Shown: positions 7,113 through 49,835, counted from the stretch's first letter. The stretch is DNA of 59,248 nucleotides from Deltaproteobacteria bacterium (GCA_028713995.1 JAQTNF010000012.1:1-59248); one strand, 5' to 3'. Numbers and translations: made by a program. The notes: generated from the letters alone by a model not told the origin.

Positions 7113-8270
7113 CTACTGGACCAGTGTGCACCCGATCTTGCCGCCCTTCTCGCGACAGATGGCGGCCGCGATCTTGCCGCGGTTGCCGATCGTCACGATG
7201 AAGGTCTTGTACTGCGGGAGCGGCTCCTTGCGCACGATCGGCTTGCCGCCCTTGACGACCGCGCCGGCGAGCACGGCCTGCTTGTAGAGATCCGCGGACC
7301 ACACCGAGTAGTCGAGCGAGATCTTGTCGCCCTTCTTGTCCCCGCGGCTCGGGCCGGACGGTGGCGTTGCGGGCGGCGTCTCCTTGGCGGGTTTGGCCCC
7401 GACGCCGTCGCCCTTCTGGTCCTGCTGGCGGGCCGCGCCGTCCTCGGCGACGTCCGCGGAACCCTGGTTCGGCGCAAAGGCCATGAACGTGAGCTCCTTG
7501 ACGGTCGTGTCGGCAGCCACTTTGCCGAAGCCCGTCACGTCGAAGATGCTCTCGCCCTCGGGCCGCTTGAGCGCCAGGGCGCAGCCCGTCTGGCCGTCGT
7601 TCTCACGGCAGATGGCGCTCACCACGTTGTTCCCGTGGCCGATGGTCACGATGAAGGTCGCGTAGTGCGGGAACTCGACCTCGGCCGTGGCCGCGGCGCC
7701 CGCTGAGCCTCCCACCTCGCCCTGCGCGTAGCCGCCCGAGTGCCACAGCGTATACTCGACGGCCATGGTGGCCGGCTTCGAGGCCGTGATCGTCATCTTG
7801 CGGGTCGTGCCGTTGACCGTGGCCTTGCCCACGCCCGGCGCGGTGAGGATCGTGTCGTTCGCGGCGGTGGCCTTGAGCGCGGCGCATTGCACCACCCCGC
7901 TCGTCTCGCGGCACACGGCGCTCGCCGTGTTCTTGTAGCGACCCACGGTCACGATGAACGTCTTGCCCGCCGGGAAGCTCTCCTTCTTCACCGCGGCCTT
8001 GAGCTCCTCGGTGGCCCAGCCGCCGGCCTCGCTCTGCACGTAACCGTCCTTGTGCCAGATCGAGTACTCGACCGGCACCTTGCCCGGCTGGGCGGCGGTG
8101 ATGATGAGCTGCTTGGCCGCGCCGTCCGCCTCGACCTTGGCCAGGTTGGGCACATCGAGGATCACCTTGTTCCCGGCCTGCGCGCTCGAGGGCGCGAGCC
8201 ACAAGAGCCCGGTCAGCGCCGCCCCGCCGATGCCCCAGACCGCCCCGACATTCCGTGATTTTCGAATCAT
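7113..8270 (-). CDS. Secreted protein with three Cys-paired repeats
   Basis: A 385-residue exported protein with a classical signal peptide (cleavage likely after AQA, residue 32). The mature part is three copies of a domain of about 100 residues. Each has a hydrophobic strand (LIITAAQPGKVPVEYSIWH, MTITASKPATMAVEYTLWH, SLDYSVW in the third), then KTFIVTVG/ATFIVTIG/KTFIVTIG, and ends with C-R-E-x6-C (C120/C129, C221/C230, C372/C381). The third copy carries a Lys/Pro/Gln-rich insertion at about 266-316. The constant nine-residue Cys separation suggests one disulfide per domain. I do not recognise the family. ATG 8270 follows AAAGGAGAGGGAA. Confidence 0.75.
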   Translation of the reverse strand: MIRKSRNVGAVWGIGGAALTGLLWLAPSSAQAGNKVILDVPNLAKVEADGAAKQLIITAAQPGKVPVEYSIWHKDGYVQSEAGGWATEELKAAVKKESFPAGKTFIVTVGRYKNTASAVCRETSGVVQCAALKATAANDTILTAPGVGKATVNGTTRKMTITASKPATMAVEYTLWHSGGYAQGEVGGSAGAAATAEVEFPHYATFIVTIGHGNNVVSAICRENDGQTGCALALKRPEGESIFDVTGFGKVAADTTVKELTFMAFAPNQGSADVAEDGAARQQDQKGDGVGAKPAKETPPATPPSGPSRGDKKGDKISLDYSVWSADLYKQAVLAGAVVKGGKPIVRKEPLPQYKTFIVTIGNRGKIAAAICREKGGKIGCTLVQ

Positions 8271-8373
8271 TTCCCTCTCCTTTTTTTGCGAAGCGAGGCG
8301 CGCGTGCGCCCGCACGAAGAAATAGAATACAGGGGTTTGACGTGTCGGGCCCCATGAGAATTCACCATGACCG

Positions 8374-9120
8374 TCATTTCCCGTACGAGAGCCCGCAAAA
8401 GACCTTTTCCGCGTGCACAACGGCTCCGGGCGTGTCCACGTCCTGCCAGCGGCCCGCGCCCACATCGTGCACCGCCGCCAGCCCTTGCGCGGCAAGGGCG
8501 CGCACGCCGTCCGAGAGCGAGCAGTCGCCGTCGGCGCGCGACGAGGAGGCGCGCTCGAGCGCCACGAACAGGCCGGGCGTGCAGGCGAACAGCCCCGTGT
8601 CGACCGCGTCGAAGTCAGCGAGGTCCTTGGCGATGGCCGCGATGCGGCCGTTCGCGGTGCGCACCTTGGTGGCGTCGTCCATGTCGTAGATCTCCGAGAG
8701 CTTGCGATCCACCGCGAGCGTGAGCCCGCCCTCGGGCACGGGCGCGGTCATGAGGCCCGCGATGAGCGAGGCATCGAAGACATGGTCCGACATGGACAGG
8801 AAAAAGCGCCGCTCGCCCACGAGCTCGCGCGCGGCGAGCACGGACAGGCCGTTGCTCTGCTTCCAGCGCGGGTTCATCGCGAACGACACGGGCAAGGCCG
8901 GGCGTCCCGACTCGATGCCGGCCCGCACCTCGTCGCCCCGGTAGCCGATCACCACCACGGCCTGCCCGGCTCCGGCCTGCGCGAACCGGTCGAGCACGCG
9001 CAACGCGAGCGCCCTGCCGGCCACGGGCAGGAGCGGCTTGGGCGGGCCCGCGTCGCTCTTCAACCGGGAGCCCAGCCCTGCGGCGATCACCACCACGAGG
9101 TCGATGTTCGGAGTGTCCAT
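8374..9120 (-). CDS. NTP transferase, inositol-1-phosphate cytidylyltransferase-like
   Basis: A 248-residue GT-A-fold nucleotidyltransferase. The signature VVIAAGLGSRL at about 10-20 followed by PKPLLPVAGRALALRVLDRF is the nucleotide-binding loop and lysine of sugar-1-phosphate nucleotidyltransferases. NGLSVLAARELV and LSMSDHVFD match the pattern of cytidylyltransferases that activate inositol-1-phosphate or choline phosphate. It would make a CDP- or NDP-linked head group for lipid or polysaccharide synthesis; the substrate cannot be told from sequence. A fused CDP-alcohol phosphatidyltransferase domain, found in bifunctional homologues, is absent. The downstream secreted-repeat gene lies 103 nt away on the same strand. 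Confidence 0.72.
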   Translation of the reverse strand: MDTPNIDLVVVIAAGLGSRLKSDAGPPKPLLPVAGRALALRVLDRFAQAGAGQAVVVIGYRGDEVRAGIESGRPALPVSFAMNPRWKQSNGLSVLAARELVGERRFFLSMSDHVFDASLIAGLMTAPVPEGGLTLAVDRKLSEIYDMDDATKVRTANGRIAAIAKDLADFDAVDTGLFACTPGLFVALERASSSRADGDCSLSDGVRALAAQGLAAVHDVGAGRWQDVDTPGAVVHAEKVFCGLSYGK

Positions 9121-26664: not shown

Positions 26665-27621
26665 GTGGAACGATCGGCTGCCGCGAGCGCCCTCGGGCTC
26701 TCTCTCGCACGGCGCGAAGGCGCGGGCCTCGGCGTCGAGAACGGGTCGGACGCGGTGCGGCTCGTGCACGGCGCGGCCGACGGCTTCGCCGGCCTCACCG
26801 CGGATCGCCTGGGACCGGCCGTGCTCGTCGAGCGCCACGACCCGGCCGCGGACGCGGAGGGGATCATCGAGGCCCTGGCCCGGCGCTTCGGCGCGCAGGA
26901 ACCGATCTTCCTCAAGGAGCGCTGGTCCAAGGAGCGCGCGGACCGGGCCGGCGGACAGGTGCGCGGCGCCGCGTGCCCGCCGGATATCCTCGTGCCGGAG
27001 CAGGGGCTCGTCTTCGGCGTGAGCCTCGCGCACGAGGAGCACATCGGGCTCTTCCTCGACGCGCGTCCGGCGCGGGCCCTCGTGCGCCGCGTGGCGGAAG
27101 GTCGGCGCGTGCTCAACCTGTTTTCGTACACGGGCACGCTCGGCGCGGCCGCGGCCGTTGGCGGCGCCCTGTCCAGCACCAACGTGGACGTGATGCGGTC
27201 GGCCCTTGCCACGGCGCGGGACAACTACGCGCGCAACGGGCTCGCCGCGGACACGCGCACGTTCCTGCGCTGCGACGTATTCCAGCACCTCGCGCGCGCG
27301 GCCAGGAGCGAGGCGCGCTGCGATCTCATCGTCGTGGATCCGCCGCCCCGGGCCGCCCGCCCCGGACGCCGCGGGTTCGACGCGCGCACCGGGTACGGCA
27401 GGCTCCTCGCGCGGTGCCTCAAGGTGCTCGCGCCAAACGGGCTGATCCTGGCCGGCACCAACCTCAAGGGAGGAGGCTTCGAAGAGCTCGAGGACCCGCT
27501 GGCACAGGGTGCGCGCCTCGCCGGACGGAATGTCGAAATCGTGGAGCGCGTCCCGGCCGGACCCGACTTCCCGCAGCCCTCGGATCGCCCGGCCGCGCGC
27601 TTCGTGCTCGCGCAAGCCTGA
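26665..27621 (+). CDS. RlmI-like class I SAM-dependent methyltransferase
   Basis: A 318-residue methyltransferase resembling RlmI/RlmK-type 23S rRNA (cytosine-C5) enzymes. It carries the linker-domain pattern ADGFAGLTADRLGPAVLVERHD, then LFLDARPARALVR, the SAM-binding motif VLNLFSYTGTLGAAAAV, the acidic motif TNVDVMRSAL, and motif IV DLIVVDPPPRA. An N-terminal PUA domain typical of RlmI (about 396 residues) is reduced or absent. GTG 26665 is chosen because GAGGAAGG lies just upstream and no ATG fits; the previous gene is divergent. The target could be rRNA or another RNA. Confidence 0.78.
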   Translation: MERSAAASALGLSLARREGAGLGVENGSDAVRLVHGAADGFAGLTADRLGPAVLVERHDPAADAEGIIEALARRFGAQEPIFLKERWSKERADRAGGQVRGAACPPDILVPEQGLVFGVSLAHEEHIGLFLDARPARALVRRVAEGRRVLNLFSYTGTLGAAAAVGGALSSTNVDVMRSALATARDNYARNGLAADTRTFLRCDVFQHLARAARSEARCDLIVVDPPPRAARPGRRGFDARTGYGRLLARCLKVLAPNGLILAGTNLKGGGFEELEDPLAQGARLAGRNVEIVERVPAGPDFPQPSDRPAARFVLAQA

Positions 27622-27706
27622 TTGCGAATCCGCAGCTCCGCTCTTTCCAATGCATCGCGATGCTGTGCTAGGATGGAACGATTCCACAATGCCAGGAGGT
27701 CGATTC

Positions 27707-29491
27707 ATGAAACGCGATTTCGCAGCCATCTGGGGTCTCGCCTGCGCCGCGGCGCTTGCTTTCGGATGCTCCGACGCCGACGACGACGGCAACGCCGACG
27801 CCTCGGCCGACGCAGACACAGGCACCGACACGGGCACCGACACCGACACAGATACAGATACCGACACGGATTCCGACACCGACACAGATACCGACACGGA
27901 TTCCGATACGGACGCCGACGCCGACACCGACACGGATGTCGATACGGACGCCGACGCCGACACGGATACCGACACGGACACCGATACCGACACGGATTCG
28001 GACACCGACACGGACGCCGATGCCGGCATGGACGGTGGAACCGACGCGGGCGTGGACCTCGGCTGCGTCGTGCTCGTCGATGGCGCGGGCGGGAACGACT
28101 CGAACGACGGCAGCACGTGGGCGCTCGCGAAGAAGACGGTGCAGGCCGGCCTCGACGCGGCGAAGGAGATGATCCTGGTTGCCGACGCGGGGGACGATGC
28201 GGGCGATGACGCCGGCAGCGGATCCGGCCCGTGCGAGGTGTGGGTCGCAGCGGGCACGTACATCCCCACCCTGGTGACGGACTCGGGCGACCCGCGCACC
28301 GCGACGATCCTGCTTCGGGCGGGCGTCGCGCTCTACGGCGGCTTCGTGCACGGCGTGCTCTCGCGAGACGACCGCGACGTCGATGGGCATCCGACGATCC
28401 TTTCCGGCGATCTCGCCGGCGACGACGCGACCACGGGCAACGCCGAGAACGCCTACCACATCCTGACCGGCGCGGACGACGCCGTCATCGACGGCTTCAC
28501 GATCACGGCCGGCAACGCGGAGGAGGACAGCGGTGGCGGCATGTACAACCCCGGCGTCTCTCCCGTCGTGGCGCGCTGCACCTTCTCGGGAAACACGGCT
28601 CGGAACGGTGGCGGCATGTACAATGGCCCCGGCTCCGCGCCGGTGGTGACGGACTGCACCTTCTCGGGAAACACGGCCCAAACGGGAGGCGGCATGAGCA
28701 ACTACGGCTCGGCGGCCGTGGTGTCGCGCTGCACGTTCGCGGGCAACACGGCCGATTCCGCGGGCGGGATGGACAACCTCAACTCCGATGCGGTCGTGAC
28801 GGGCTGCGTGTTCTCGGGAAACAATGCCACGAACGGCCTCGGCGGCGGCATGTGCAACACGGAGAGCCCGACGACGGTGACGGGCTGCACGTTCACGGAC
28901 AACACGGCGAGCATACACGGCGGCGGGATGGCCAACTGGACCGCCTCGCCGACGGTGACGAACTGCGCGTTCGCGGGCAACACGGCGGACATGCGGGGCG
29001 GCGCGATGTCCAACCTCAGCGGCTGCGCGCCGACGCTGACGAACTGCACGTTCGCGGGCAACACGGCGGACATGTTCGGCGGCGCGATGATCAACGCGAC
29101 ATCCTCTCCGACCATGACGAGCTGCATCCTGTGGGGCAACTCGGCGCCCACGGATGCCGAGATCTATGACGACGATTCCTCGAGCAAACCCGTGGTGACC
29201 TACAGCGACGTCGAGGGCGGCTGCGCCAACATCGCCCATGCCGTGTGCGGCAGCGGCAACATCGAAGCGGACCCATTGTTCGTGAACCTGGACGCGGACG
29301 CGGGCGTCATGGATCTCCGTCTCGGGACAGGCTCGCCGTGCATCGATACGGGCTCGAACGCCGCGGTCCCTTCCGGCGTCACCACCGACCTCGACGGCAA
29401 CCCACGCATCGTCGCCGGGGCGGTGGACGCGGGTCCAGATGCGGGCGCGACCGCCACGGTCGACATGGGCGCGTACGAGCGGAGCGGGTAG
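27707..29491 (+). CDS. Right-handed beta-helix lipoprotein with Asp-Thr linker
   Basis: A 594-residue lipoprotein (AALAFGC) with an extreme Asp-rich linker of about 75 residues (DTDTDSD). Then comes a domain opening with VDGAGGNDSNDGSTWALAKKTVQAGL and VWVAAGTYIP, the usual start of pectate-lyase-like beta-helix surface proteins. Eight or so near-identical coils follow, each with C-T-F-S/A-G-N-T-A and GGGM-x-N, the GG-x-I/FxxN style of polymorphic outer-membrane repeats. It ends with GSPCIDTG and VDMGAYERSG. Likely surface-exposed; enzymatic activity is not evident. ATG 27707 follows AGGAGGTCGATTC. Confidence 0.85.
   Translation: MKRDFAAIWGLACAAALAFGCSDADDDGNADASADADTGTDTGTDTDTDTDTDTDSDTDTDTDTDSDTDADADTDTDVDTDADADTDTDTDTDTDTDSDTDTDADAGMDGGTDAGVDLGCVVLVDGAGGNDSNDGSTWALAKKTVQAGLDAAKEMILVADAGDDAGDDAGSGSGPCEVWVAAGTYIPTLVTDSGDPRTATILLRAGVALYGGFVHGVLSRDDRDVDGHPTILSGDLAGDDATTGNAENAYHILTGADDAVIDGFTITAGNAEEDSGGGMYNPGVSPVVARCTFSGNTARNGGGMYNGPGSAPVVTDCTFSGNTAQTGGGMSNYGSAAVVSRCTFAGNTADSAGGMDNLNSDAVVTGCVFSGNNATNGLGGGMCNTESPTTVTGCTFTDNTASIHGGGMANWTASPTVTNCAFAGNTADMRGGAMSNLSGCAPTLTNCTFAGNTADMFGGAMINATSSPTMTSCILWGNSAPTDAEIYDDDSSSKPVVTYSDVEGGCANIAHAVCGSGNIEADPLFVNLDADAGVMDLRLGTGSPCIDTGSNAAVPSGVTTDLDGNPRIVAGAVDAGPDAGATATVDMGAYERSG
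27800..28030 (+). repeat. Long Asp-Thr coding repeat
   Basis: About 75 consecutive codons alternating GAC/GAT with ACG/ACC/ACA, GCC or TCC. The codon mixture indicates old expansion with later drift rather than a fresh identical array. It is the longest such block in the window. Confidence 0.85.
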
Positions 29492-29543: not shown

Positions 29544-30410
29544 TCAGATATCGGGTTCGATCTCGATGCGGTAGTCGCCGACGGCCCCGCCGTTCTGCGC
29601 GTCCACCACGATGAAGTACGTCTCCCCTGCCACGAGGGTCAGCCCGACGCTGGTGTTGAAGCAGCCCTCCCCAGACGGCTCGAGGTTGGTGCATTCTCCC
29701 TCGTCGGTGAAAAGGGCCGTGGCCGACCGGCTCCATCCCTTGCTCTGACCGGCGCAGTCGTAGATCGCCATCGAGCCGGCAGGGACGGGCAGGTCGGTCC
29801 CGGAGTCGCTGTCCGGGATCGACCGGTAGTAGGCGGTCACCCACACATCGCCGTTCACGCTGTTGTTCACCAGACGGACGACCTGGTCGTATCCGTTCCA
29901 GTTCGCTTCGTCCGTGCTCGGGCCTTCCGTGTGCTCATTGCCGGAAGCGGTCGTGATCGTGTTCTTGGCGCCGTCGTCGCGGCTGCTCGTCCCCGGCGGG
30001 AGCCAGGCAGCGGACCCGACGAGATCGTAGGTGTGGGTGTAGGCGAGCGCAAACGTGCAGCCCGTGTCCGTGTAGGTGTCGGAGTCGGAGTCCGTGTCGG
30101 AGTCGGAGTCCGAGTCAGCGTCCGTGTCGCCATCAGAGTCCGAGTCGGCGTCGCTGTCCGCGTCCGAACCCGAGTCGGAGTCCGAGTCGGAGTCCGAGTC
30201 CGAGTCAGCATCCGTGTCGCTGTCCGTGTCGCTGTCCGTATCGCTGTCCATGTCGCCGTCCGCGTCCGTGTCGGGCCCACCGTCAGGGCTTGCGTCGAAC
30301 GATCCGTTGTCATCGTCTCCGGAATCCACGGGCGTGACCTTGGCGCAGCCCGAGGTTGCGAACGAAGCCGCGAACAGCGCACCCACCGTGAATACAAGCA
30401 TGGTTCTCAT
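29544..30410 (-). CDS. Asp-Ser-rich lipoprotein with beta-sandwich-like tail
   Basis: A 288-residue lipoprotein ([13 protein letters not shown]) with about 75 residues of DSDTDSD repeats, then a domain of about 165 residues. The domain includes [49 protein letters not shown] and [29 protein letters not shown]. The last segment resembles pre-peptidase C-terminal-type domains in which a tail strand pair reads T-Y-x-I-V-V-D-x8-G-x-Y. Function unknown; probably a surface adhesive or ligand-binding module. It is convergent with the beta-helix gene. Confidence 0.7.
30063..30298 (-). repeat. Asp-Ser/Asp-Thr coding repeat
   Basis: Roughly 78 codons of GAC/GAT alternating with TCC, TCG, ACG, GCG and GGC in the lipoprotein at 29544-30410. 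The same DS/DT theme as four other blocks here, with its own codon pattern. Confidence 0.8.
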
Positions 30411-30584: not shown

Positions 30585-31667
30585 ATGGTCGCGTTGGAGA
30601 GCACCTTGAGGATCTTGAGCCTGGGCGCCGGGGGGTTCATCGGCTCGCACCTCGCGAGCCACCTTCTCGCGCGGGGCCACACGGTCACGGGCGTCGACAT
30701 CCACTCGGACAAGATCGGGGAGCTCCTCGAACACCCAGGATTCACCTTCGTCCGGCAGGACATCCGCGACACGGGCTTCGAGGTCGAGCGGCTCGTCGCC
30801 GAGGCCGACGTGGTGATCGACCTCATCGCCTACGCCAACCCGGGGCTGTACCTGCGCCAGCCCCTCGACGTGTTCCATCTCAACTTCACCGAGAACATGA
30901 AGATCGCAGAGGCGTGCGTGGCGCGAGGGCGTCGCCTCGTGCAGTTCTCGTCGTGCGAGGTGTACGGCAAGACCGTGGCCCGCGCGGCGCCCGGCAAGCT
31001 CATCGATCCCGAGGATCCGGCGCTCGCAACGTTTCGCGAGGATGAGACCGACTTCATCCTGGGGCCCGTGTCGAAGCACCGATGGATCTACGCCTCGGCC
31101 AAGCAGCTCCTCGAGCGCGTGCTGCACGCTTACGGCCTCGAGGGAAGGCTCGACTACACCATCGTGCGTCCCTTCAACTTCATCGGCCCGAAAATAGACT
31201 ACCTGCCGTCGGACACGCCCGGCTTCCCGCGCGTCTTCCCGCACTTCATGGAGGCGTGCCTCAAGGGTACGCAGATGAAGCTGGTGGACGGTGGCCGCAA
31301 CCGCCGCTGCTACACGGACATCGAGGACGCCGCGGCCTGTATCGGCCTCATCGTGGAGAACCCCGGCGGCGTGTGCGCGCGCCAGATCTTCAACGTGGGC
31401 TCGCCGAAGAACGAGGTGAGCATCCGCGGTCTGGCCGAGCTCATGCGCGACCTCTACGCGACGAAGCTCGCCCGCCCCGGCGCGCGCCTGCCGTCCATCG
31501 TGGACGTCCCGGCCCGCGAGTTCTATGGCCCGGGCTACGACGACTCGGACCGCCGCATCCCGGACATCTCGAAGGCGCGTACCCTGCTCGGCTGGGAGCC
31601 CCGCTACGATCTGCGCGAGACGCTCGAGCGCACCATGCGCCACTACCTGGCCGCGAACGGCTCCTGA
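30585..31667 (+). CDS. ArnA-dehydrogenase-like UDP-glucuronate decarboxylase
   Basis: A 360-residue SDR-family enzyme closely patterned on the C-terminal oxidative decarboxylase domain of ArnA and on UDP-xylose synthases. Seen: the NAD motif GAGGFIGSHLASHL, SSCEVYGKT, ILGPVSKHRWIYASAKQLLERVLHAYG with the catalytic Tyr/Lys, VRPFNFIGP, and DGGRNRRCYTDIED, where ArnA has its catalytic Arg (RCFTDI in E. coli). The expected reaction converts UDP-glucuronate to UDP-4-keto-pentose (or UDP-xylose). The formyltransferase domain of ArnA is absent. First gene of a four-gene operon. Confidence 0.87.
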   Translation: MVALESTLRILSLGAGGFIGSHLASHLLARGHTVTGVDIHSDKIGELLEHPGFTFVRQDIRDTGFEVERLVAEADVVIDLIAYANPGLYLRQPLDVFHLNFTENMKIAEACVARGRRLVQFSSCEVYGKTVARAAPGKLIDPEDPALATFREDETDFILGPVSKHRWIYASAKQLLERVLHAYGLEGRLDYTIVRPFNFIGPKIDYLPSDTPGFPRVFPHFMEACLKGTQMKLVDGGRNRRCYTDIEDAAACIGLIVENPGGVCARQIFNVGSPKNEVSIRGLAELMRDLYATKLARPGARLPSIVDVPAREFYGPGYDDSDRRIPDISKARTLLGWEPRYDLRETLERTMRHYLAANGS

Positions 31668-31680
31668 AGGCGTCGCGAAG

Positions 31681-32433
31681 GTGGGCGCGTCCAACGTCAT
31701 GGTGCTGATGCCGGCTTACAACGCCGGTCCCACCGTGGAGCGGGTCTTTTCGCGCATTCCGTCCGTGGCGCGCGCCCGGATCGGAGGCTACGTCGTGGTG
31801 GACGACGGCAGCACGGACGACACGCGCGAGGCCCTCGGGCGCGTGATGCGTGACTTCCCCACCCTGGTCGCGCTCGAGCACGGCGAAAACCGCGGCTACG
31901 GCGCGGCCATGAAGACTCTGCTCGGCTACGCGCGCGAGCACTGCGCGGGCGCGGCGATCGTGCTGCACGCGGACGGCCAGTACTCGCCCGAGCGCATCCC
32001 CGCTCTCCTCGCACCCATCGAGGCCGGCGAAGCGGACGTCGTGCAGGGGTCGCGCATGCTGGGGGGCGGCGCGCTCGCGGGCGGCATGCCGCTCTACAAG
32101 TACGCGGCCAACAGGATCCTCACGAATATCGAGAACCGCGCCTTCGGCCTCAAGCTCGCCGAGTACCACAGCGGGTACATGCTCTACTCGCGCCTTGCCC
32201 TCGAACGCATCGCCTTCGAACGGCTCTCCGACACGTTCGTGTTCGACCTGGAAATGATCGTGGCCGCGCGCGTGCTCGACCTGCGCGTCCGCGAGCTGCC
32301 CATCCCCACCATCTACGCGGACGAGGTCTCGCACCTGCGTCCCGTGCGCTACGGCCTCGAGGTGCTCTCGGTGGTGCGGCGATACCGGCGCGGCCGCTAC
32401 CACGCGCTCCTCGGCGTCGGAGGCCGGCCGTGA
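31681..32433 (+). CDS. GT2 glycosyltransferase, ArnC/DPM1-like
   Basis: A 250-residue GT-A glycosyltransferase with VMVLMPAYNAGPTVERVF, GGYVVVDDGSTDDTREAL and the metal-binding HADGQYSPERI, then QGSRMLGGG and EYHSGYMLYSR. The pattern is that of dolichol/undecaprenyl-phosphate sugar transferases. It lacks the two C-terminal membrane helices of ArnC and is shorter. GTG 31681 is chosen (GAAGG upstream); ATG 31699 is an alternative that trims the first strand. Starts 13 nt after the decarboxylase stop and overlaps the next gene by 4 nt, so the two are translationally coupled. Confidence 0.83.
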   Translation: MGASNVMVLMPAYNAGPTVERVFSRIPSVARARIGGYVVVDDGSTDDTREALGRVMRDFPTLVALEHGENRGYGAAMKTLLGYAREHCAGAAIVLHADGQYSPERIPALLAPIEAGEADVVQGSRMLGGGALAGGMPLYKYAANRILTNIENRAFGLKLAEYHSGYMLYSRLALERIAFERLSDTFVFDLEMIVAARVLDLRVRELPIPTIYADEVSHLRPVRYGLEVLSVVRRYRRGRYHALLGVGGRP

Positions 32434-33317
32434 TCCTGGTGACCGGCGGCGCGGGCGTGGTCGGCGCGCGGCTCGTGCGCGGGCTCGCCACGGCAGGCCA
32501 CGCGGTGCGCGCGCTCACGCTCCCCGGGGACCCGAACGCGGCGCGGCTCGCGGACACGGGTTGCGAGATCGCTTACGGCGACGTGGCTGACGCGGGCTCG
32601 CTCGTCCGCGTATTCGACGGGGTGCACACGGTCTACCACCTGGCCGCGGTGATCATCACGCGCGACCCGCGCGACTACGACCGCATCAACGTCGGCGGCG
32701 TGAGAAACGTCGTCGCGGGCGCACGCGCCGCGGGCGTCACGCACTTCGTGCACGTCTCCTCGGCCGCGGCCCTGCACCCGGAAGGGTCGGCCTACGCCCG
32801 CTCCAAGCTCGAGGGCGAGCGCATCGTGAGCTCGCAGGACGCCATGCGGTTCACGATCGTGCGGCCCACGCTCGTCTACGACAGGGACGGCGGGCAGGAG
32901 TTCCGCATGTTCCTCGCCGCACTCGAGCGCTTCCCCGTGGCGCCCTTCGTGGGGCTCGGCCGGGCGCGAAAAAACCCGGTGCACGCGGACGACGTCGTGA
33001 AGGGGCTCCTCGCCATCGCGGGAAACCCTCGGGCCCACGGCAAGACCTATGCGCTGAGCGGCGGCGAGGCCATCCCCGTCCGCGAGCTCGCGAAGCTCAT
33101 GCTGCGGCTTCGCGGCTCGTCGCGGCCCATCGTCCCCGTCCCGGTGCCGCTCTGCCGGCTCGCGGCGTTCGTCATGGAGCGCGTCATGAGCGATCCTCCC
33201 CTCACGCGTTACGCCGTGAGCCGCATCGTGGAGGACGCGGACCTCGACAACTCGGAGGCGCGCCGCGACCTCGGCTACGATCCCGTGGGCGTGCGCGAGG
33301 GGCTCGCGAGATGCTAG
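32430..33317 (+). CDS. NAD-dependent epimerase/dehydratase (SDR)
   Basis: A 295-residue extended SDR. It has the dinucleotide motif VTGGAGVVGARLVRGL, TVYHLAAVI, HVSSAAALHPEGSAYARSKLEGE with the Y-x3-K pair, and VRPTLVYDRDGG. It resembles hydroxysteroid-dehydrogenase-like or sugar-nucleotide epimerases. In this operon it probably reduces or epimerises the keto sugar formed by the first enzyme; that is inference from position. The start is GTG 32430 in a GTGA overlap with the glycosyltransferase; the end overlaps the next gene by 7 nt. Confidence 0.82.
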   Translation: MILVTGGAGVVGARLVRGLATAGHAVRALTLPGDPNAARLADTGCEIAYGDVADAGSLVRVFDGVHTVYHLAAVIITRDPRDYDRINVGGVRNVVAGARAAGVTHFVHVSSAAALHPEGSAYARSKLEGERIVSSQDAMRFTIVRPTLVYDRDGGQEFRMFLAALERFPVAPFVGLGRARKNPVHADDVVKGLLAIAGNPRAHGKTYALSGGEAIPVRELAKLMLRLRGSSRPIVPVPVPLCRLAAFVMERVMSDPPLTRYAVSRIVEDADLDNSEARRDLGYDPVGVREGLARC

Positions 33318-35143
33318 CGGCCGTGACCACGCGCGCCCGCCGCGCCATCGATCTCGCCTCGGACCTCTGCGAGCGGCGCACGGCGCTCCTGCTCGCCCTC
33401 GTCCTCTTTTTCGCGGCCGTGCTGCGCGCGCTCACCCTGTGGAGCCTCGCCGGAACCGTGTATTGGGACCACCTCCTCACGGACGAGCGCGTGTACCACG
33501 ACTGGGCGAAGGCCATCGCGGACGGCGCGTGGACGTCGTCGTCGGTGTACGAGTTCGCACCCCTGCCCGCCTACCTCATGGCGCTCGTGTACAGGCTCTT
33601 CGGGCCGGACGTGCTGTACGTCCGCCTCCTCAACCTGTCGCTCGGCGTGCTCGCGTGCGGCCTCTTCTACGTGATCGGCCGGGAGCTCGGCGGCAAGGCC
33701 GTGGGGCTCGCGTCTGGCGTCCTCGCCGCGTGCTACGGCGAGCTCGTCTTCTACAGCGTGGTGCCGCTCAAGACGTCCCTCTCCGTGTGCGCCCTCGCGC
33801 TCGCCCTCGCGCTCGCCCTCGCGCTCCTCAGGGAGGATGCGATCCGCGCGTGGCGGGCCCGGGCTCTCGCGCTCACCCTGGGCCTCGTGTGCGGGGCCAT
33901 GGTCCACGTGCGGGGCAACACCGTCGTCGTCGCGCCGACGCTCGCGCTCTTCGCGCTCGTCGCCCCTCGTGCGCGCGCCTCTCGCGATCGGGCCGTCGTC
34001 GTCGCGTTGTTCGTCGTCGGCTTCGCCGTGTCGCTCGCGCCGGCGATGATCCGCAATCGTGTCGTGGCCGGAGAGCTCGCGCTCACCACCGCCCAGACCG
34101 GACGCAACCTGTACTTCGGCAACAACCCCGGGAACGGCTCGCCCTACTACCTTCCGCTCTCGTTCGCGTCGTCGGCCCCCGAGGAGCAGGCCGTGCAGTT
34201 CGTGATCGAGGCCAGCCGGCGCGAGGGGACCAGGCTCACGCAGGTGCAGGCGTCCGCCTTCTGGACGCGCGAGGTCGCGCGGTACGCGGAGAGCCGGCCC
34301 TCCGATTTCTGGCGCGGGATCCGCGTCAAGGCGCTCGCGCTCGTGAACCGCTTCGAGGCCGGCGACCACTACCACGTGGGCTTCATGGGTCGCTTCATAC
34401 CGCTCCTGCGAATGCTCCTCGGGCTCTCGCTCGTCCTGCCGTTCGGCATGGCCGGCCTCGTCCTCTTCGCGGGCCGCTCGCGCAAGCACGCGGCCCTTGC
34501 GGCCGTCTTCCTCGCGTACGGCGCCACGCTCGTGGCGACCGTGGTGAACGCGAGGTACAGGCTGCCGCTGCTCGTCGTTCTCATCCCGTTCGCGTGCCTG
34601 GGGCTCGGCGGGCTCGCGCGCGACCTTCTGGAAAAACGGGTGCGCCGGGCGGCCATCTTCGCGGCGTGCGTGCTCGCCTTCTTTGCGATCGAGCTTTTGC
34701 CCCTGCCCGGCACGGGCGACCTCACGTCGTACCTCAACACCCACGCGCTCGCCCTCGACGCCGAGGGGCGCACCGACGAGGCCATCGCGTTCTGGGAGGA
34801 GTCGTCGCGGGCCAAGGGCGCGTTCTCGCCCGTGGCGGACCTGTTCCTGGCCGGAAAGCGCTACGAGAAGGGCGATCGGGACGCGGCGTTCGCGCTCGTG
34901 CGCGGCATCCCGGACTCCTCGTTCGCGGCCGCCCCGGCGCACGCCCTGCTCGGCGACCTCCTGGCCCACGAGGGACGCGCGCGCGAGGCGATCGCGCAGT
35001 ACGAGCGCTCGCTCGCGATCAACCCCGGGCAGCGCCGGATCCGCAGGGAGCTCGCGCGGCTCTACGGCCCGATCGATCCGGCAAGGGCGGGCGAGGCGCG
35101 TCGCGAGCTCGCCGTGATTGACAGTTTCTTCGCCCGCCGGTAG
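33311..35143 (+). CDS. GT39/ArnT-like membrane glycosyltransferase with TPR tail
   Basis: A 610-residue GT-C membrane transferase. After a first helix comes the periplasmic loop with the acidic pair LLTDERVYHDWAKAI, as in ArnT/PMT-type enzymes that use lipid-linked sugars. About ten hydrophobic helices follow, with AYLMALVYRLFGPD and a conserved loop TGRNLYFGNNPGNGSPYYLP. Beyond residue 475 the chain becomes a soluble TPR-like region (LALDAEGRTDEAIAFWEE, LLGDLLAHEGRAREAIAQYERSLAINPG). It would transfer the sugar made by the upstream genes to a periplasmic acceptor. The gene starts inside the epimerase 3' end. Confidence 0.82.
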   Translation: MLAAVTTRARRAIDLASDLCERRTALLLALVLFFAAVLRALTLWSLAGTVYWDHLLTDERVYHDWAKAIADGAWTSSSVYEFAPLPAYLMALVYRLFGPDVLYVRLLNLSLGVLACGLFYVIGRELGGKAVGLASGVLAACYGELVFYSVVPLKTSLSVCALALALALALALLREDAIRAWRARALALTLGLVCGAMVHVRGNTVVVAPTLALFALVAPRARASRDRAVVVALFVVGFAVSLAPAMIRNRVVAGELALTTAQTGRNLYFGNNPGNGSPYYLPLSFASSAPEEQAVQFVIEASRREGTRLTQVQASAFWTREVARYAESRPSDFWRGIRVKALALVNRFEAGDHYHVGFMGRFIPLLRMLLGLSLVLPFGMAGLVLFAGRSRKHAALAAVFLAYGATLVATVVNARYRLPLLVVLIPFACLGLGGLARDLLEKRVRRAAIFAACVLAFFAIELLPLPGTGDLTSYLNTHALALDAEGRTDEAIAFWEESSRAKGAFSPVADLFLAGKRYEKGDRDAAFALVRGIPDSSFAAAPAHALLGDLLAHEGRAREAIAQYERSLAINPGQRRIRRELARLYGPIDPARAGEARRELAVIDSFFARR

Positions 35144-35181: not shown

Positions 35182-36825
35182 ATGAGAACCTTGTCGATCG
35201 TCGTTTTCGCCGCGGCCGCGATCGCGCTGTCGCCCACGCAGGCGCGCGCGCAGGGCACCATGGAGCTCATCAGCGTCAGCACCACGGGCGGCCCGTCCAA
35301 TGGGTACAGCTTCGAGCCGTCCATCTCGGCGAACGGCCGCTACGTGGCCTTCTACTCCGGCGCCACGGACCTGGTCTCCACGACGACCACCGGATACCAA
35401 GTATTCGTTCGCGATCGGTGGAGCAGCACGACCGCGCTCGTGAGCTGGAACGCCACGAGCAGCGCCGGCGGAAACTCGACCAGCAGCGACCCCTCCATCT
35501 CGGCGGACGGCCGCCACGTGGTGTTCGCCTCGAACGCTACGGACCTCGTCGCCACCACCGTCTCGGGGCAGCAGGTCTACCTGCGCGATCTCGACACGAG
35601 CGCCACCACGCTCGTGAGCGTGAACGCCGCAGGGAACGCCGGAGGGAACGCTTCCAGCTCGTCACCCGTCATTTCGGGAGACAACCGCTACGTGGCGTTC
35701 GTGTCTGGGGCCTCGGACCTCGGCCCCGCGGGCAACGGCACCGCTCACATCTACGTTCGCGATCTTCAGACGCACACCACGTTCCTCGTCAGCGCGGCGG
35801 ACACGGACGCCGGAGACGATCTCGGCAACGGCCCTTCGTACGAGCCCTCCATCTCGGGAAACGGGCGCTACGTGGCCTTCGAGTCGGACGCCACGGACCT
35901 CACGTCGCCCGCGACGACCAGCAGGCAGATTTTCGTGCGCGACGTCGTGGACGGGACCACCGTGGTCGCGAGTGTCAACACGGTCGGCGCACCCGGCAAC
36001 AACGGGAGCTACCACGCGCGCATCACGCCCGACGGCAGGTGGGTGGCGTTCAGCTCCTACTCCACTGATCTGGTGTCTCCGGCGACCTCGTGGCGGCAAG
36101 CGTTCCTGCGCGATTTGACGGGCGACACCACGATCCTCATCAGCCAGAGCACGGTCGGCGTGCCCGGCAACAACGACTCCGGCGGCTACGGAGGCGGCCT
36201 TTCCTCTGACGGGCGCTACGTGGCCTTCAACTCGTACGCGAACAACCTCATTCCGGTCGATCTGAACAGCAATGTCGACATCTTCGTGCGCGACCACGTC
36301 GACGAGACCACCGTCCGCGCGGGTGAAGGAGTGGATGGCGGCGAGCCGAACGGCTCGACCGAGCACTCGGCCATCTCCTCGACGGGGCGCTTCGTGGCCT
36401 TTACCTCGTGGGCGAGCAATCTCGTTCCGGACGACACCAACACCTACCCCGATGTTTTCGTCTACGAGCTCCTCGGGCCGACCCCGGACGCGGGCGTGGA
36501 CGGAGGGGTGGACGGCGGCATGGACGCGGGACTCGACGCGGGCGACACGGACACCGGCTCCGCGACGACCGACTCGGACGCCGACACCGACACCGACACC
36601 GACACGGACACGGACGCGGACGCCGACACCGACACGGACACGGACGCCGACTCGGACAGTGACACGGGCACGGGCGACGTGGACACCGGCACGGACACCA
36701 CCGACACGGGCGCCGATGCGGGCGCCGACGCGGGCGATGGCAAAGACAACTCCGGCTGCGGCTGCGCCACCGCGGGCGAGGCGAGTCGCGTGACCTTGTT
36801 CCTCCTCATCGAAAGTCTGATCTAG
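35182..36825 (+). CDS. Seven-repeat TolB/PD40-like propeller protein with Asp-rich tail
   Basis: A 547-residue exported protein (signal MRTLSIVVFAAAAIALSPTQARAQ). Seven repeats follow, each with S-x-D/N-G-R-Y-V-A-F-x-S-x-A-T-D-L-V and a Q-V-F-V-R-D strand, consistent with a seven-bladed propeller of the WD40-like PD40 type. After residue about 430 come DAGVDGG and DTDTDTD repeats, then a Cys-rich end SGCGCATAG and a short hydrophobic run VTLFLLIESLI. GCGC plus hydrophobic stretch resembles the MYXO-CTERM sorting tail, but the usual Arg-rich end is missing; the in-frame codons just after the TAG would encode RSVSRRRF. ATG 35182 follows AGCAGGAGC. Confidence 0.8.
   Translation: MRTLSIVVFAAAAIALSPTQARAQGTMELISVSTTGGPSNGYSFEPSISANGRYVAFYSGATDLVSTTTTGYQVFVRDRWSSTTALVSWNATSSAGGNSTSSDPSISADGRHVVFASNATDLVATTVSGQQVYLRDLDTSATTLVSVNAAGNAGGNASSSSPVISGDNRYVAFVSGASDLGPAGNGTAHIYVRDLQTHTTFLVSAADTDAGDDLGNGPSYEPSISGNGRYVAFESDATDLTSPATTSRQIFVRDVVDGTTVVASVNTVGAPGNNGSYHARITPDGRWVAFSSYSTDLVSPATSWRQAFLRDLTGDTTILISQSTVGVPGNNDSGGYGGGLSSDGRYVAFNSYANNLIPVDLNSNVDIFVRDHVDETTVRAGEGVDGGEPNGSTEHSAISSTGRFVAFTSWASNLVPDDTNTYPDVFVYELLGPTPDAGVDGGVDGGMDAGLDAGDTDTGSATTDSDADTDTDTDTDTDADADTDTDTDADSDSDTGTGDVDTGTDTTDTGADAGADAGDGKDNSGCGCATAGEASRVTLFLLIESLI
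36553..36735 (+). repeat. Asp-Thr/Asp-Ala coding repeat
   Basis: Tandem GAC-ACC/GAC-ACG/GAC-GCC codons joining the propeller to the Cys-rich C-terminus of the protein at 35182. Here the Asp-rich spacer is C-terminal, whereas in the lipoproteins it is N-terminal. Confidence 0.75.
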
Positions 36826-36927: not shown

Positions 36928-38097
36928 ATGTCAATTCGCTCCAGGAAGACATTTTTCGTCCTCGTGCTCGTGGGTCTGCTCACCGCAGGCGGCGGGTGCG
37001 ACAGGATGATCATGGGCGACGAGCACGGATGCGGCGGCCACCACGATTGCAGCGGCGACGACGAAAACGACGACAATGATGATGATCACGACACGGCCAC
37101 GTTCACGGACTTCTTCACGGATACGGACAGCGCGACCTCCACCGACACCGCGGCCGACATGGACGCGGACATGGACACGGACGCGGACGGGGACACCGAA
37201 ACGGCCTCCGACACGGACACCGGTTCCGACACCTCAAGCGTGGTGTGCGAGGACTGGGAGGCTCTTGACGCACACATCGTGGATTCGCCGCCGGCCGGCA
37301 TCAAGCCCACGCAGGACGGCATCTGCGGCGACGCGACCTCGCCGTCCCACAGCAACCTGGCCGCGCGGGTGACGATCGACGTCACGACCGCCTCGCTCGA
37401 CGCCGCGGTCGGCACCGTGCTCATCCCGGACGGTTTGAAGGGCAAGGTCGTGGGGCTGCCGCGGATCTCCGTCGAGGAGGCCATGCCATACGAGTTCTAC
37501 GCCATGACCGTCACCGGCATGACCGAGTCGGCGGACGGCTTCACCTTTGAAGCGACGTGGCCCGAGCCGTTCGGCGTGGACCCGGGATCGATCTCCGCCA
37601 CCATGGTCGTCAAGGTGGCCATGGAGATCGCCTGCGGCGACGGCGACGCGGGTGTCGACGGCGGCGTTGACAGCGGGCCGGGGACAAAGACCGTCGAGGC
37701 CGTCACGTACCTGGATCTGTGCGACGGCCCCTCGCACCCGGGCTGGGTCAGCTCGGGCGACGAATGCGCCGTGTGCCGGGCGGTCGCCGAGGTGGCGGCC
37801 TCTCCCACATTTCCTGTCGGGCGGTGCGACGGCCTGGCCCTTCCGGCGTCGTTCAGGCTCGAGCTCGTTCCCGTCTCGTGGCAGGGGCGTTCCGTGGTGG
37901 TCGAGGCGCGCTGCGAAACCGCCGGTCGCGGGATCTCCTTCTCGTGGAAGGCCTCGGCCGGGACCATCGCCGGCCAGGGCGGGAGCCGCGCAACGTGGAC
38001 CCCGCCCGCCGATCCGGGGCCGCATGTCATCCAGGTCGTGGCCGACGACGGCCGCTCGGTGGCCGTGGCCAGCCTGCCCTGGCGCCACCGGGCTTGA
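36928..38097 (+). CDS. Asp-rich lipoprotein of unknown function
   Basis: A 389-residue lipoprotein (KTFFVLVLVGLLTAGGGC). Right after the lipobox is a His/Asp/Cys cluster (DEHGCGGHHDCSGDDENDDNDDDHD) suggestive of metal binding, then a DTDTDMDADMD linker. The rest divides into a beta-rich region (ARVTIDVTTASLDAAVGTVLIPDG, MPYEFYAMTVTGMTESADGFTFEATW) with a DAGVDGGVDSG insert, and a C-terminal Ig-like module (SFRLELVPVSWQGRSVVVEARC, ASAGTIAGQGGSRATWTPP). No family recognised. ATG 36928 follows AAGGAGGGACTTCCG. Confidence 0.7.
   Translation: MSIRSRKTFFVLVLVGLLTAGGGCDRMIMGDEHGCGGHHDCSGDDENDDNDDDHDTATFTDFFTDTDSATSTDTAADMDADMDTDADGDTETASDTDTGSDTSSVVCEDWEALDAHIVDSPPAGIKPTQDGICGDATSPSHSNLAARVTIDVTTASLDAAVGTVLIPDGLKGKVVGLPRISVEEAMPYEFYAMTVTGMTESADGFTFEATWPEPFGVDPGSISATMVVKVAMEIACGDGDAGVDGGVDSGPGTKTVEAVTYLDLCDGPSHPGWVSSGDECAVCRAVAEVAASPTFPVGRCDGLALPASFRLELVPVSWQGRSVVVEARCETAGRGISFSWKASAGTIAGQGGSRATWTPPADPGPHVIQVVADDGRSVAVASLPWRHRA
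37120..37235 (+). repeat. Asp-Thr/Asp-Met coding repeat
   Basis: About 38 codons reading TDTDSATSTDT through DMDADMDTDADGD within the lipoprotein at 36928; more degenerate than the other blocks. Confidence 0.65.
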
Positions 38098-47882: not shown

Positions 47883-49835
47883 ATGGACATCGGAAAGGTT
47901 GTGGCGGGCCCTGGTCGAAGAATGGGGGTTCTCAGCGCGATTCTCGTCGCTCTTACAGTGACGCTCGCGTCCTGCGAAACGGGAAGCGGGACGGACGCTG
48001 ACGCCGGCCACGACATCAAGATCGACGTCCCGGATCTCGTCCTGCCGGACGAAGTCTGCGTCTTCAGGGTCGACGCCGACGCCGCGCCCACGGGCGACGG
48101 CCGCTCCTGGGAGACGGCGTTCGCCCGCGTCGAGGATGCTCTCGACGCCGCGGAGGCGGCCCTGGACACCTCTGTCGCGCTTGCGCAGGTCTGGGTGAAG
48201 GAGGGCACCTACTACGTTTATAAGTCCTCGACTGACGACACGATCCAGCTTCGTCCGGGTGTGGAGTTACTTGGCGGTTTCGGGGGCATCGAAGCCGCGG
48301 CCGAGGAACGCGATCCGAGCGTACATGTCACGATCCTCGATGGAACGAACGGATCGCTCGACACGGCGCACGTCGACTCGGTCGTCACCGGCGCCGACAA
48401 CACCCTGATCGACGGGTTCACGATCCGCAACGGTGGGCAGCCACCGGACTTAGCTGGGGAGTTCGACAACTTCGGTGGCGGGATGATCGTCATGGGCGGC
48501 ACATTCGAGGTGAGTCGTTGCCGCTTCGAGGACAACACCGCGCTTTCCGGCGGAGGCATCGATGTATACAGCGGAGAGGCGGTCGTGCGCGAATGCGTCT
48601 TCTTACGGAACACGGCCTACGGCGGCGGTGCGCTGCGTTTCGGATCTGAAGAGTCTCGGGTGAAAGCCACGGTCGAAGACTGCCTATTCGAAAACAACGT
48701 GGCAGATGAAGGAGGGGCGGTGTCCGCATCGAGAACCTCGCTGCATATTTCGTCGAGCCGTTTCCTGAAGAACGAGGCGCGAACCGAAGGCGGCGCCCTG
48801 TTGGTCGTCAATGCGGGAACCGAAAGTCCGCCCGAGCAGATCGCGATCGACGACAGCGTGTTCAGCGAAAACCGCTCTGAAAGAGGCGGAGCGATTATCG
48901 TAAAATACAACCTGACGACGACGATCTCTGGTTGCGAGATCGCGGACAACGAGGCCGCGAAGGTCGGCGGCGGCTTGTCGATATACGGGGACCAGACAAC
49001 GATAGACGGTTGCGAGATCCGAGGGAGTCATGCCGAGGCTGGTGGCGGGCTGGAGGTGCGCGCCGGCGGGACGGTCGTGCGCGACAGCGTGATCGAGGAC
49101 AATCGCGCCGAGGTGGCTGCGGATTCGGAAGAAGGATCTGCCGGTTTCGGCGGTGGCATGCTCGTCATGGATGGCGACGTGACTCTCGAACGAGTGCGCT
49201 TCCTCGGCAACGCGGGAGACGTCGCCGGCGGAGCGCTCGCCCTGTTCGCGGTGTGCAACATCATCGAGGCCTACGATCCTTTTTACGGCACGTACTACAT
49301 ATGCGACGGCTGCAACCACCCGGAAGCGACGGTCGCAAGCTGCCTGCTCGCCGGGAACTCGGCGCCGCTCGGCGGGGGGATCCACTCGCACGGTGCCAAG
49401 GTCGCGGTTGCCAGCTCGACGCTCGCCGGGAACTCGGCGGCCGCGGGCACCTCGATTTTCGGGACGTTCGAGACGGCGCTCTTCCCCTGCACCGAGAGCC
49501 TCTACGCGTCCTTTTCGCTCTCGGGCTCGATCCTTTTCGACGATTCCGCGTCGGCGATGGTGCTGGAGGAAACAACGCTCGAGGCAACCTACACCGATTC
49601 GTCGGCGCCGCTCGGGGGCGAGGGCAACCTGAGCGCGGATCCGGGCTTCGTCGACGCTGACGCCGGCGACTACCGGCTCGTCGCGGGCTCGCCATGCATC
49701 GATGCGGCAAACGGACCCTCGGCACCGGCACAGGACATCGACAGCAACCCGCGCGTCGATGATCCGGACGCGCCGAACACAGGCGCCGGGCCGCCGTGGG
49801 CCGACATGGGCGCCTTCGAGCGCCAGCCGGACTGA
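47883..49835 (+). CDS. Right-handed beta-helix lipoprotein
   Basis: A 650-residue lipoprotein (SAILVALTVTLASC). A short Asp-rich stretch (TDADAGHDIKIDVPD) replaces the long linkers seen elsewhere. The core opens ADAAPTGDGRSWETAFARVEDAL and VWVKEGTYYVYK, then many coils with C-x-F-x2-N-x-A and GGG-x-D/S/R (RFEDNTALSGGGIDVYSGEAVVRECVF). It ends SPCIDAANGPS and DMGAFERQ. It shares architecture with the protein at 27707 but little DNA identity, and has slightly more A/T-ending codons, suggesting a separate history. Surface-exposed; ligand unknown. Confidence 0.83.
   Translation: MDIGKVVAGPGRRMGVLSAILVALTVTLASCETGSGTDADAGHDIKIDVPDLVLPDEVCVFRVDADAAPTGDGRSWETAFARVEDALDAAEAALDTSVALAQVWVKEGTYYVYKSSTDDTIQLRPGVELLGGFGGIEAAAEERDPSVHVTILDGTNGSLDTAHVDSVVTGADNTLIDGFTIRNGGQPPDLAGEFDNFGGGMIVMGGTFEVSRCRFEDNTALSGGGIDVYSGEAVVRECVFLRNTAYGGGALRFGSEESRVKATVEDCLFENNVADEGGAVSASRTSLHISSSRFLKNEARTEGGALLVVNAGTESPPEQIAIDDSVFSENRSERGGAIIVKYNLTTTISGCEIADNEAAKVGGGLSIYGDQTTIDGCEIRGSHAEAGGGLEVRAGGTVVRDSVIEDNRAEVAADSEEGSAGFGGGMLVMDGDVTLERVRFLGNAGDVAGGALALFAVCNIIEAYDPFYGTYYICDGCNHPEATVASCLLAGNSAPLGGGIHSHGAKVAVASSTLAGNSAAAGTSIFGTFETALFPCTESLYASFSLSGSILFDDSASAMVLEETTLEATYTDSSAPLGGEGNLSADPGFVDADAGDYRLVAGSPCIDAANGPSAPAQDIDSNPRVDDPDAPNTGAGPPWADMGAFERQPD

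Follow-up and report, generated by a model that had tools for sequence, protein, structure and literature searches.

The four genes and their products

On the plus strand of a 59,248-nucleotide contig from a Deltaproteobacteria bacterium (GCA_028713995.1, JAQTNF010000012.1; contig C12 of a genome of 4.98 Mb that is 97% complete), the whole of which is here called the window, four open reading frames at positions 30585-35143 overlap or nearly abut and may together encode a pathway for the lipid-linked transfer of a pentose. A preliminary description of this DNA had placed the four genes correctly and had interpreted them as a reduced operon of the Arn type, the Arn system (pmrHFIJKLM) being the one that equips lipid A with 4-amino-4-deoxy-L-arabinose (Ara4N). 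The genes are called g1 to g4 in the following.

The first gene, g1 (30585-31667, plus strand), encodes a protein of 360 amino acids that was assigned by the Pfam Epimerase family, NCBIfam model NF008872, Protein Data Bank (PDB) matches, invariant columns and a tree to the extended short-chain dehydrogenases/reductases (SDR) of the UDP-glucuronate decarboxylase type. The earlier term "ArnA-dehydrogenase-type decarboxylase" was too narrow, since the best match of known structure is the plant UDP-apiose/xylose synthase 6h0n (E 1e-84), ArnA giving 7e-74. NF008872 is passed only marginally (297.3 bits, cut-off 294), and the tree places g1 outside the ArnA-type clade. The catalytic residues E125, Y169, K173 and R324 are intact. 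Of the two cysteines by which UDP-apiose/UDP-xylose synthases are recognized, numbered as in AtAXS1, g1 has the equivalent of Cys140 (C124) and lacks that of Cys100, where it has A84.

In a maximum likelihood tree of 54 enzymes, three groups are distinguished by these two positions: an ArnA-type group with Ala and Ser at the Cys100 and Cys140 positions, respectively (14 rows, support 96/95), the group of the window enzyme with Ala and Cys (14 rows, 99/91), and a UDP-apiose-synthase group with Cys100 (23 rows, 100/99), which includes AtAXS1 and the enzyme from Alloyangia. The window group is sister to the UDP-apiose-synthase group (99/96), the ArnA clade being separate. In all 14 members of the window clade the Cys100 position is occupied by Ala, and the ArnA-like motif RWIY is retained. 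The enzyme from Alloyangia, a genus of which we take Yangia to be the older name, has Ser at the Cys140 position. Yangia is among the named carriers of bacterial UDP-apiose synthases (bUAS) (PMC5607165). A further natural variant of the active site, with Cys100 kept and Ala at the Cys140 position, is found in two related large-genome members (L049:7989-9008 and L050:7989-9008). The nearest relatives of g1 are enzymes from Acidobacteriota and Calditrichota (63-66% identity), while two genomes from the window's own family (G044 and G091) carry a Cys100-type enzyme in place of the Ala type, which suggests that g1 and g2 were acquired by horizontal transfer. One member of the window clade is encoded within a polysaccharide cluster on a haloarchaeal plasmid of Halomarina (L055:9007-10083).

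The second gene, g2 (31681-32433, plus strand), encodes a glycosyltransferase of family 2 (GT2, PF00535) of about 250 amino acids. Its frame is open from 31525 to the stop at 32433; the likeliest start is the GTG at 31681, 13 bp past the g1 stop, with the ATG at 31699 as the alternative. No transmembrane (TM) helix was found by hydropathy, so that the protein is without membrane anchors as described earlier. The label "ArnC-like" was, however, too specific: the NCBIfam scores, all below the curated cut-offs, are 63.6 bits for PpgS and 63.3 for AglJ versus 33.9 for ArnC. With the PDB match to dolichol-P-mannose synthase (E 3e-11), the adjacency to g1 and the trees described below, g2 is best regarded as a putative dolichyl/polyprenyl-phosphate-sugar synthase-type GT2, soluble and with PpgS and AglJ rather than ArnC as its nearer relatives.

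The third gene, g3 (32430-33317, plus strand), starts with a GTG that overlaps the g2 stop by 4 bp. Its product of 295 amino acids is an extended SDR, as had been stated, with GxxGxxG and YxxxK motifs (active site YARSK), and is HpnA-like, scoring below the cut-off. It is probably an epimerase or reductase of a pentose, and it possibly acts on the lipid-carried pentose.

The fourth gene, g4 (33311-35143, plus strand, ATG start), overlaps g3 by 7 bp and encodes a protein with a PMT_2 domain (PF13231), about nine hydrophobic segments and C-terminal tetratricopeptide repeats (TPR). In the earlier assignment to an ArnT/GT39-type with TPRs, "ArnT" was too specific, the NCBIfam ArnT model not being matched by g4. 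The AlphaFold2 model (predicted local distance difference test, pLDDT, 90.2; predicted TM-score, pTM, 0.89) is similar to AglB in Foldseek (E 6e-7) and gives Z scores of 25-26 to Pmt4, AglB, Pmt1-Pmt2 and ArnT over 315-358 residues, a tie from which no acceptor class can be deduced. The acidic pair D58-E59, of which D58 is nearly invariant, lies in the first external loop. By its modelled fold and this acidic pair g4 is a membrane glycosyltransferase of the GT-C type with a TPR tail. The same genome contains a paralogue with 33% identity (C15:14034-15260).

Conserved pairing of g1 with g2

Among 289 genomes of the window's class, a myxococcote one, relatives of g1 are present in 20, the window's own included, and in 18 of the 19 other carriers (the exception is G186) a g2-type GT2, complete or in part, lies directly beside them. 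Since matches to g2 at E 1e-35 or better occur in only 58 of the 289 genomes, the finding of both genes no more than about 300 bp apart in almost all g1 carriers is far beyond chance.

The pairing was followed further in a survey of loci from all our collections, in which Arn proteins from E. coli served as probes. The thresholds were set by us and the loci had been chosen for their similarity to g1, so that the fractions are not to be read as a census. A g2-type GT2 adjoins 10 of the 14 loci of the window group and 27 of 35 distinct loci of the Cys100 group (37 rows, two contigs occurring twice), i.e., 37 of 49 distinct loci on the apiose-synthase side, from at least six phyla, versus 0 of 33 ArnA-type loci. 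Conversely, ArnB (20), ArnC (25), ArnD (21), the formyltransferase (21) and ArnT (26) are found near the 33 ArnA-type loci, and none of the five was detected near any of the 49 loci on the apiose-synthase side. The paired GT2s also form clades of their own: those beside Cys100-type enzymes group together (19 members, 100/99), and the window GT2 groups with the GT2s of Acidobacteriota and Calditrichota that accompany the nearest relatives of g1 (98/96). Unpaired GT2s from Myxococcota genomes of the same class are placed between these two clades. This does not mean that the pairing is exclusive. Indeed, exclusiveness is ruled out by close GT2 homologues that occur without g1.

Orthologues of g3 directly follow g2, in the gene order of the window, in Chitinispirillum and in Planctomycetota (L072, L073; 43-49% identity), and others with 49-58% identity are part of a Myxococcota cluster described below. 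Near the g1-g2 pair of relatives there is a PMT_2 protein in Caldithrix, a GT-C-like protein in Acidobacteriota (hhalign probability of 90 to g4), and a protein with TM segments and TPRs in Verrucomicrobiales that is divergent to the GT2-g1 pair (L065:4927-7140; also L064, L066 and L067). The match of the Verrucomicrobiales membrane protein to g4 in hhalign, like that of the Myxococcota one, is confined to the TPR part and thus gives no support for common descent of the membrane parts; for a divergent membrane protein of Acidobacteriota (L059:7985-9940) the AlphaFold model was unusable (pLDDT 43). In the protein at L065:4927-7140 the first hydrophobic segment is followed by an acidic pair, a feature that recalls the TMTC O-mannosyltransferases.

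A possible lipid-linked pentose pathway and its alternatives

We propose, with a probability of roughly 0.6, that a UDP-pentose is converted to a polyprenyl-phosphate-pentose, from which a GT-C enzyme transfers the sugar outside the cytoplasm; the individual reactions, their order, the sugar and the acceptor we infer from the gene content, the homologies and the gene neighbourhoods. In this scheme g1 would oxidize and decarboxylate UDP-glucuronate to a UDP-pentose. Then g2 would load the pentose onto polyprenyl phosphate at the cytoplasmic face, in the manner of DPM1, GtrB and PpgS, which handle other sugars, and g3 would reduce or epimerize the pentose before or after loading. A flippase would turn the loaded lipid, and g4 would finally pass the pentose to a protein, glycan or lipid at the outer face, its TPR tail perhaps aiding the binding of the acceptor or of a partner. 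The scheme is suggested by the conserved catalytic residues of g1, by a UDP-glucose dehydrogenase-family gene in the genome (C63, 220 bits), by the closeness of g2 to polyprenyl/dolichyl-phosphate-sugar synthases, by the g1-g2 adjacency together with the separate clades of the paired GT2s, by the GT-C fold of g4, whose members use polyprenyl-linked donors, and by the GT-C-like or TM and TPR proteins near the pair in several relatives. In addition, a pathway of like logic that includes a pentose-changing SDR is known for the pentofuranoses of Citrobacter youngae O1/O2 (PMC11127046). Of the earlier suggestion, the addition of a non-amino pentose fits the gene set, by way of a lipid carrier.

It should be noted, however, that several observations weigh against this scheme. 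No flippase is among the four genes as assigned by Pfam, a genome-wide search for one not having been made. An orthologue of g4 is not conserved with g1 and g2, its nearest homologues (34%) lying elsewhere, so that the final step is the least certain. Orthologues of g3 are also found in other Myxococcota families without g1 and g2, and g2 could be an ordinary glycosyltransferase. As to the sugar, the structure gives no answer whether such decarboxylases form a 4-keto sugar or xylose (PMC10338323).

That the genes belong to a reduced or scattered Arn pathway making Ara4N, with the missing steps elsewhere in the genome, is largely refuted. What speaks for it is the homology of g1 to the ArnA dehydrogenase, with a score just above the U4kpxs cut-off, and the fold of g4, to which ArnT and PMT are equally near. 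Against it, ArnB, ArnD and the formyltransferase, reported earlier as missing from the operon, were not found in the whole assembly either, and the complete arn set that had been named as a refutation of the earlier reading is thus not present elsewhere in the genome. Of 11 DegT/DnrJ matches six are full length, and none of these reaches the ArnB cut-off of 631 bits in NCBIfam, the best score (310.9) belonging to a protein above the PseC cut-off; the best ArnD score (NF011923) is 23.5 bits versus a cut-off of 382, with a positive E. coli control; and PF00551 has just two matches, in frames of 225 and 335 amino acids, the sizes of PurN and Fmt, neither of which is fused to g1. The clade of g1 and its neighbourhoods likewise contrast with those of ArnA-type enzymes; the comparison of gene order in relatives, which had been advised as a check, revealed the opposite of Arn-type surroundings. 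Nor does g3 specifically stand in for the amino steps, as had been supposed, since it occurs without g1 and g2. By these comparisons the four-gene set is a parallel module rather than a pruned Arn operon, sharing with Arn only the superfamily of the first enzyme and the general logic, and the name "reduced Arn-like operon" is to be dropped.

The two other alternatives concern the fate of the pentose and its identity. It is unlikely, though to be kept in mind, that g1 makes UDP-xylose for a cytosolic glycan, with g2 serving as an ordinary glycosyltransferase in the synthesis of an exopolysaccharide or a lipopolysaccharide side chain and g4 a neighbour with a substrate of its own. Members of the g1 clade in Caldithrix and Halomarina do lie within polysaccharide gene clusters, and proteins of the g4 family are widely found where g1 is absent; but the top matches of g2 are lipid-phosphate sugar synthases, the four genes follow one another with overlaps or next to no gap, and GT-C enzymes use polyprenyl-linked donors. 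Also unlikely is that g1 contracts the ring without Cys100, the window pathway delivering lipid-linked apiose. This would agree with the sister relationship to UDP-apiose synthases, with the plant enzyme as top PDB match, with the Cys at the 140 position and with the Myxococcota relatives that keep Cys100, for which apiose is a serious possibility. However, Cys100 has been described as a residue on which proton transfer and the opening of the ring depend in a key way (PMC12820599). Its absence from g1 and the whole window clade, which also retains RWIY, argues against apiose. Judged by this residue, UDP-xylose or UDP-4-keto-xylose is a more likely product of g1 than UDP-apiose.

The proposed lipid-linked pathway resembles several known systems in part. 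With Arn it would share the sequence from UDP-glucuronate via a lipid-linked pentose to a GT-C enzyme, a homologous first enzyme and the fold of the last; it differs in lacking aminotransferase, formyltransferase and deformylase, in a GT2 outside the ArnC group and in a decarboxylase outside the ArnA clade. The three-component GtrA/GtrB/Gtr glycosylation of C. youngae O1/O2 combines, as the window pathway would, a lipid-phosphate sugar synthase, a pentose-altering SDR and a GT-C transferase, but starts from phosphoribosyl pyrophosphate, which a polyprenyl phosphoribose synthase uses to yield ribofuranose (PMC11127046), rather than from UDP-glucuronate via a decarboxylase and a DPM1-like GT2; a dedicated flippase gene, as expected in such a system, is not among the four genes of the window operon. 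O-Mannosylation by DPM1 and PMT/TMTC (TMTC: PMC7801869) relies on a soluble synthase, which the putative one encoded by g2 would resemble, and on a GT-C protein that, like g4, ends in TPRs and carries two adjacent acidic residues in its first external loop; in the window the donor sugar would be a pentose, and the likeness to TMTC is one of shared features. The bUAS (PMC5607165, PMC6193724) form the sister clade of g1, with catalytic core and Cys140 position in common but with the Cys100 that g1 lacks. In 2017 their genes, from a handful of species, were reported to be without a conserved operon (PMC5607165), unlike the Cys100-type enzymes of Myxococcota, Fibrobacterota and Planctomycetota considered here, which have a conserved GT2 neighbour.

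It is possible, and we put it forward tentatively, that organisms of at least six phyla share a route, widespread though undescribed, to polyprenyl-phosphate-pentose for extracytoplasmic GT-C glycosylation, in which a decarboxylase resembling apiose synthases works with a GT2 of the DPM1-like kind that is dedicated to it; the sugar would be apiose in the Cys100 lineages and xylose or 4-keto-xylose in the window clade. We found no prior description of polyprenyl-linked apiose or of a lipid-linked pathway with apiose-synthase-type enzymes in the open-access literature. If true, bUAS would have a conserved partner and a function; for this family as well as for the sister clade that lacks Cys100, the conserved pair provides a partner and a pathway, that of lipid-linked pentose, which can be put to the test. 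The Cys100-less clade offers natural enzymes for asking what Cys100 does in ring contraction, and apiose or xylose would be predicted on surface glycoconjugates of Acidobacteriota, Verrucomicrobiota, Myxococcota and Fibrobacterota, all little studied.

Neighbouring genes and related clusters

A possible fifth gene (35182-36825, plus strand), whose membership is uncertain, begins 38 bp past g4 and encodes a putative secreted PD40 beta-propeller protein (7e-18) with an aspartate-threonine (D-T) linker. In Myxococcota relatives (e.g., L049) a PD40 protein sits between the g3 and g1 orthologues, but has no recognizable similarity to that of the window beyond the repeat. Further putative secreted proteins are encoded at 27509-29491, 29544-30410, 36928-38097 and 47883-49835, most of them, the PD40 protein included, with long D-T or D-S repeat linkers. 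The idea that these linkers are dedicated acceptors was dropped: the DNA pattern for (DT)3D is present at 258 sites, so that D-T linkers are a genome-wide feature and no evidence for such a role.

At three loci (L154, L155 with the g3 orthologue at 7989-8873, and L157) no UDP-glucuronate decarboxylase of the g1 family is present, and the g3 orthologue has as neighbours a PMT_2 GT-C protein, an amidotransferase resembling AsnB and a UbiA protein. The UbiA protein is close to decaprenyl-phosphate phosphoribosyltransferases (DPPR-synthase-like), below the cut-off. The context again suggests lipid-linked sugars, and from the gene content these loci are possibly another lipid-linked pentose system.

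AlgX (PF16822) gave no match in the window genome, but the control genomes were silent as well, so that this negative carries no weight. In other Myxococcota a conserved cluster around a Cys100-type enzyme (L049:4342-18010, L051:38-12655, L036, L043 and L046) has the order TM/TPR protein, SASA esterase, MBOAT, AlgX, SDR (g3), PD40, Cys100-type UDP-apiose-synthase-like enzyme, GT2, second AlgX and transglutaminase/TPR protein, a combination of a pentose donor pathway and genes for O-acetylation of the alginate type.

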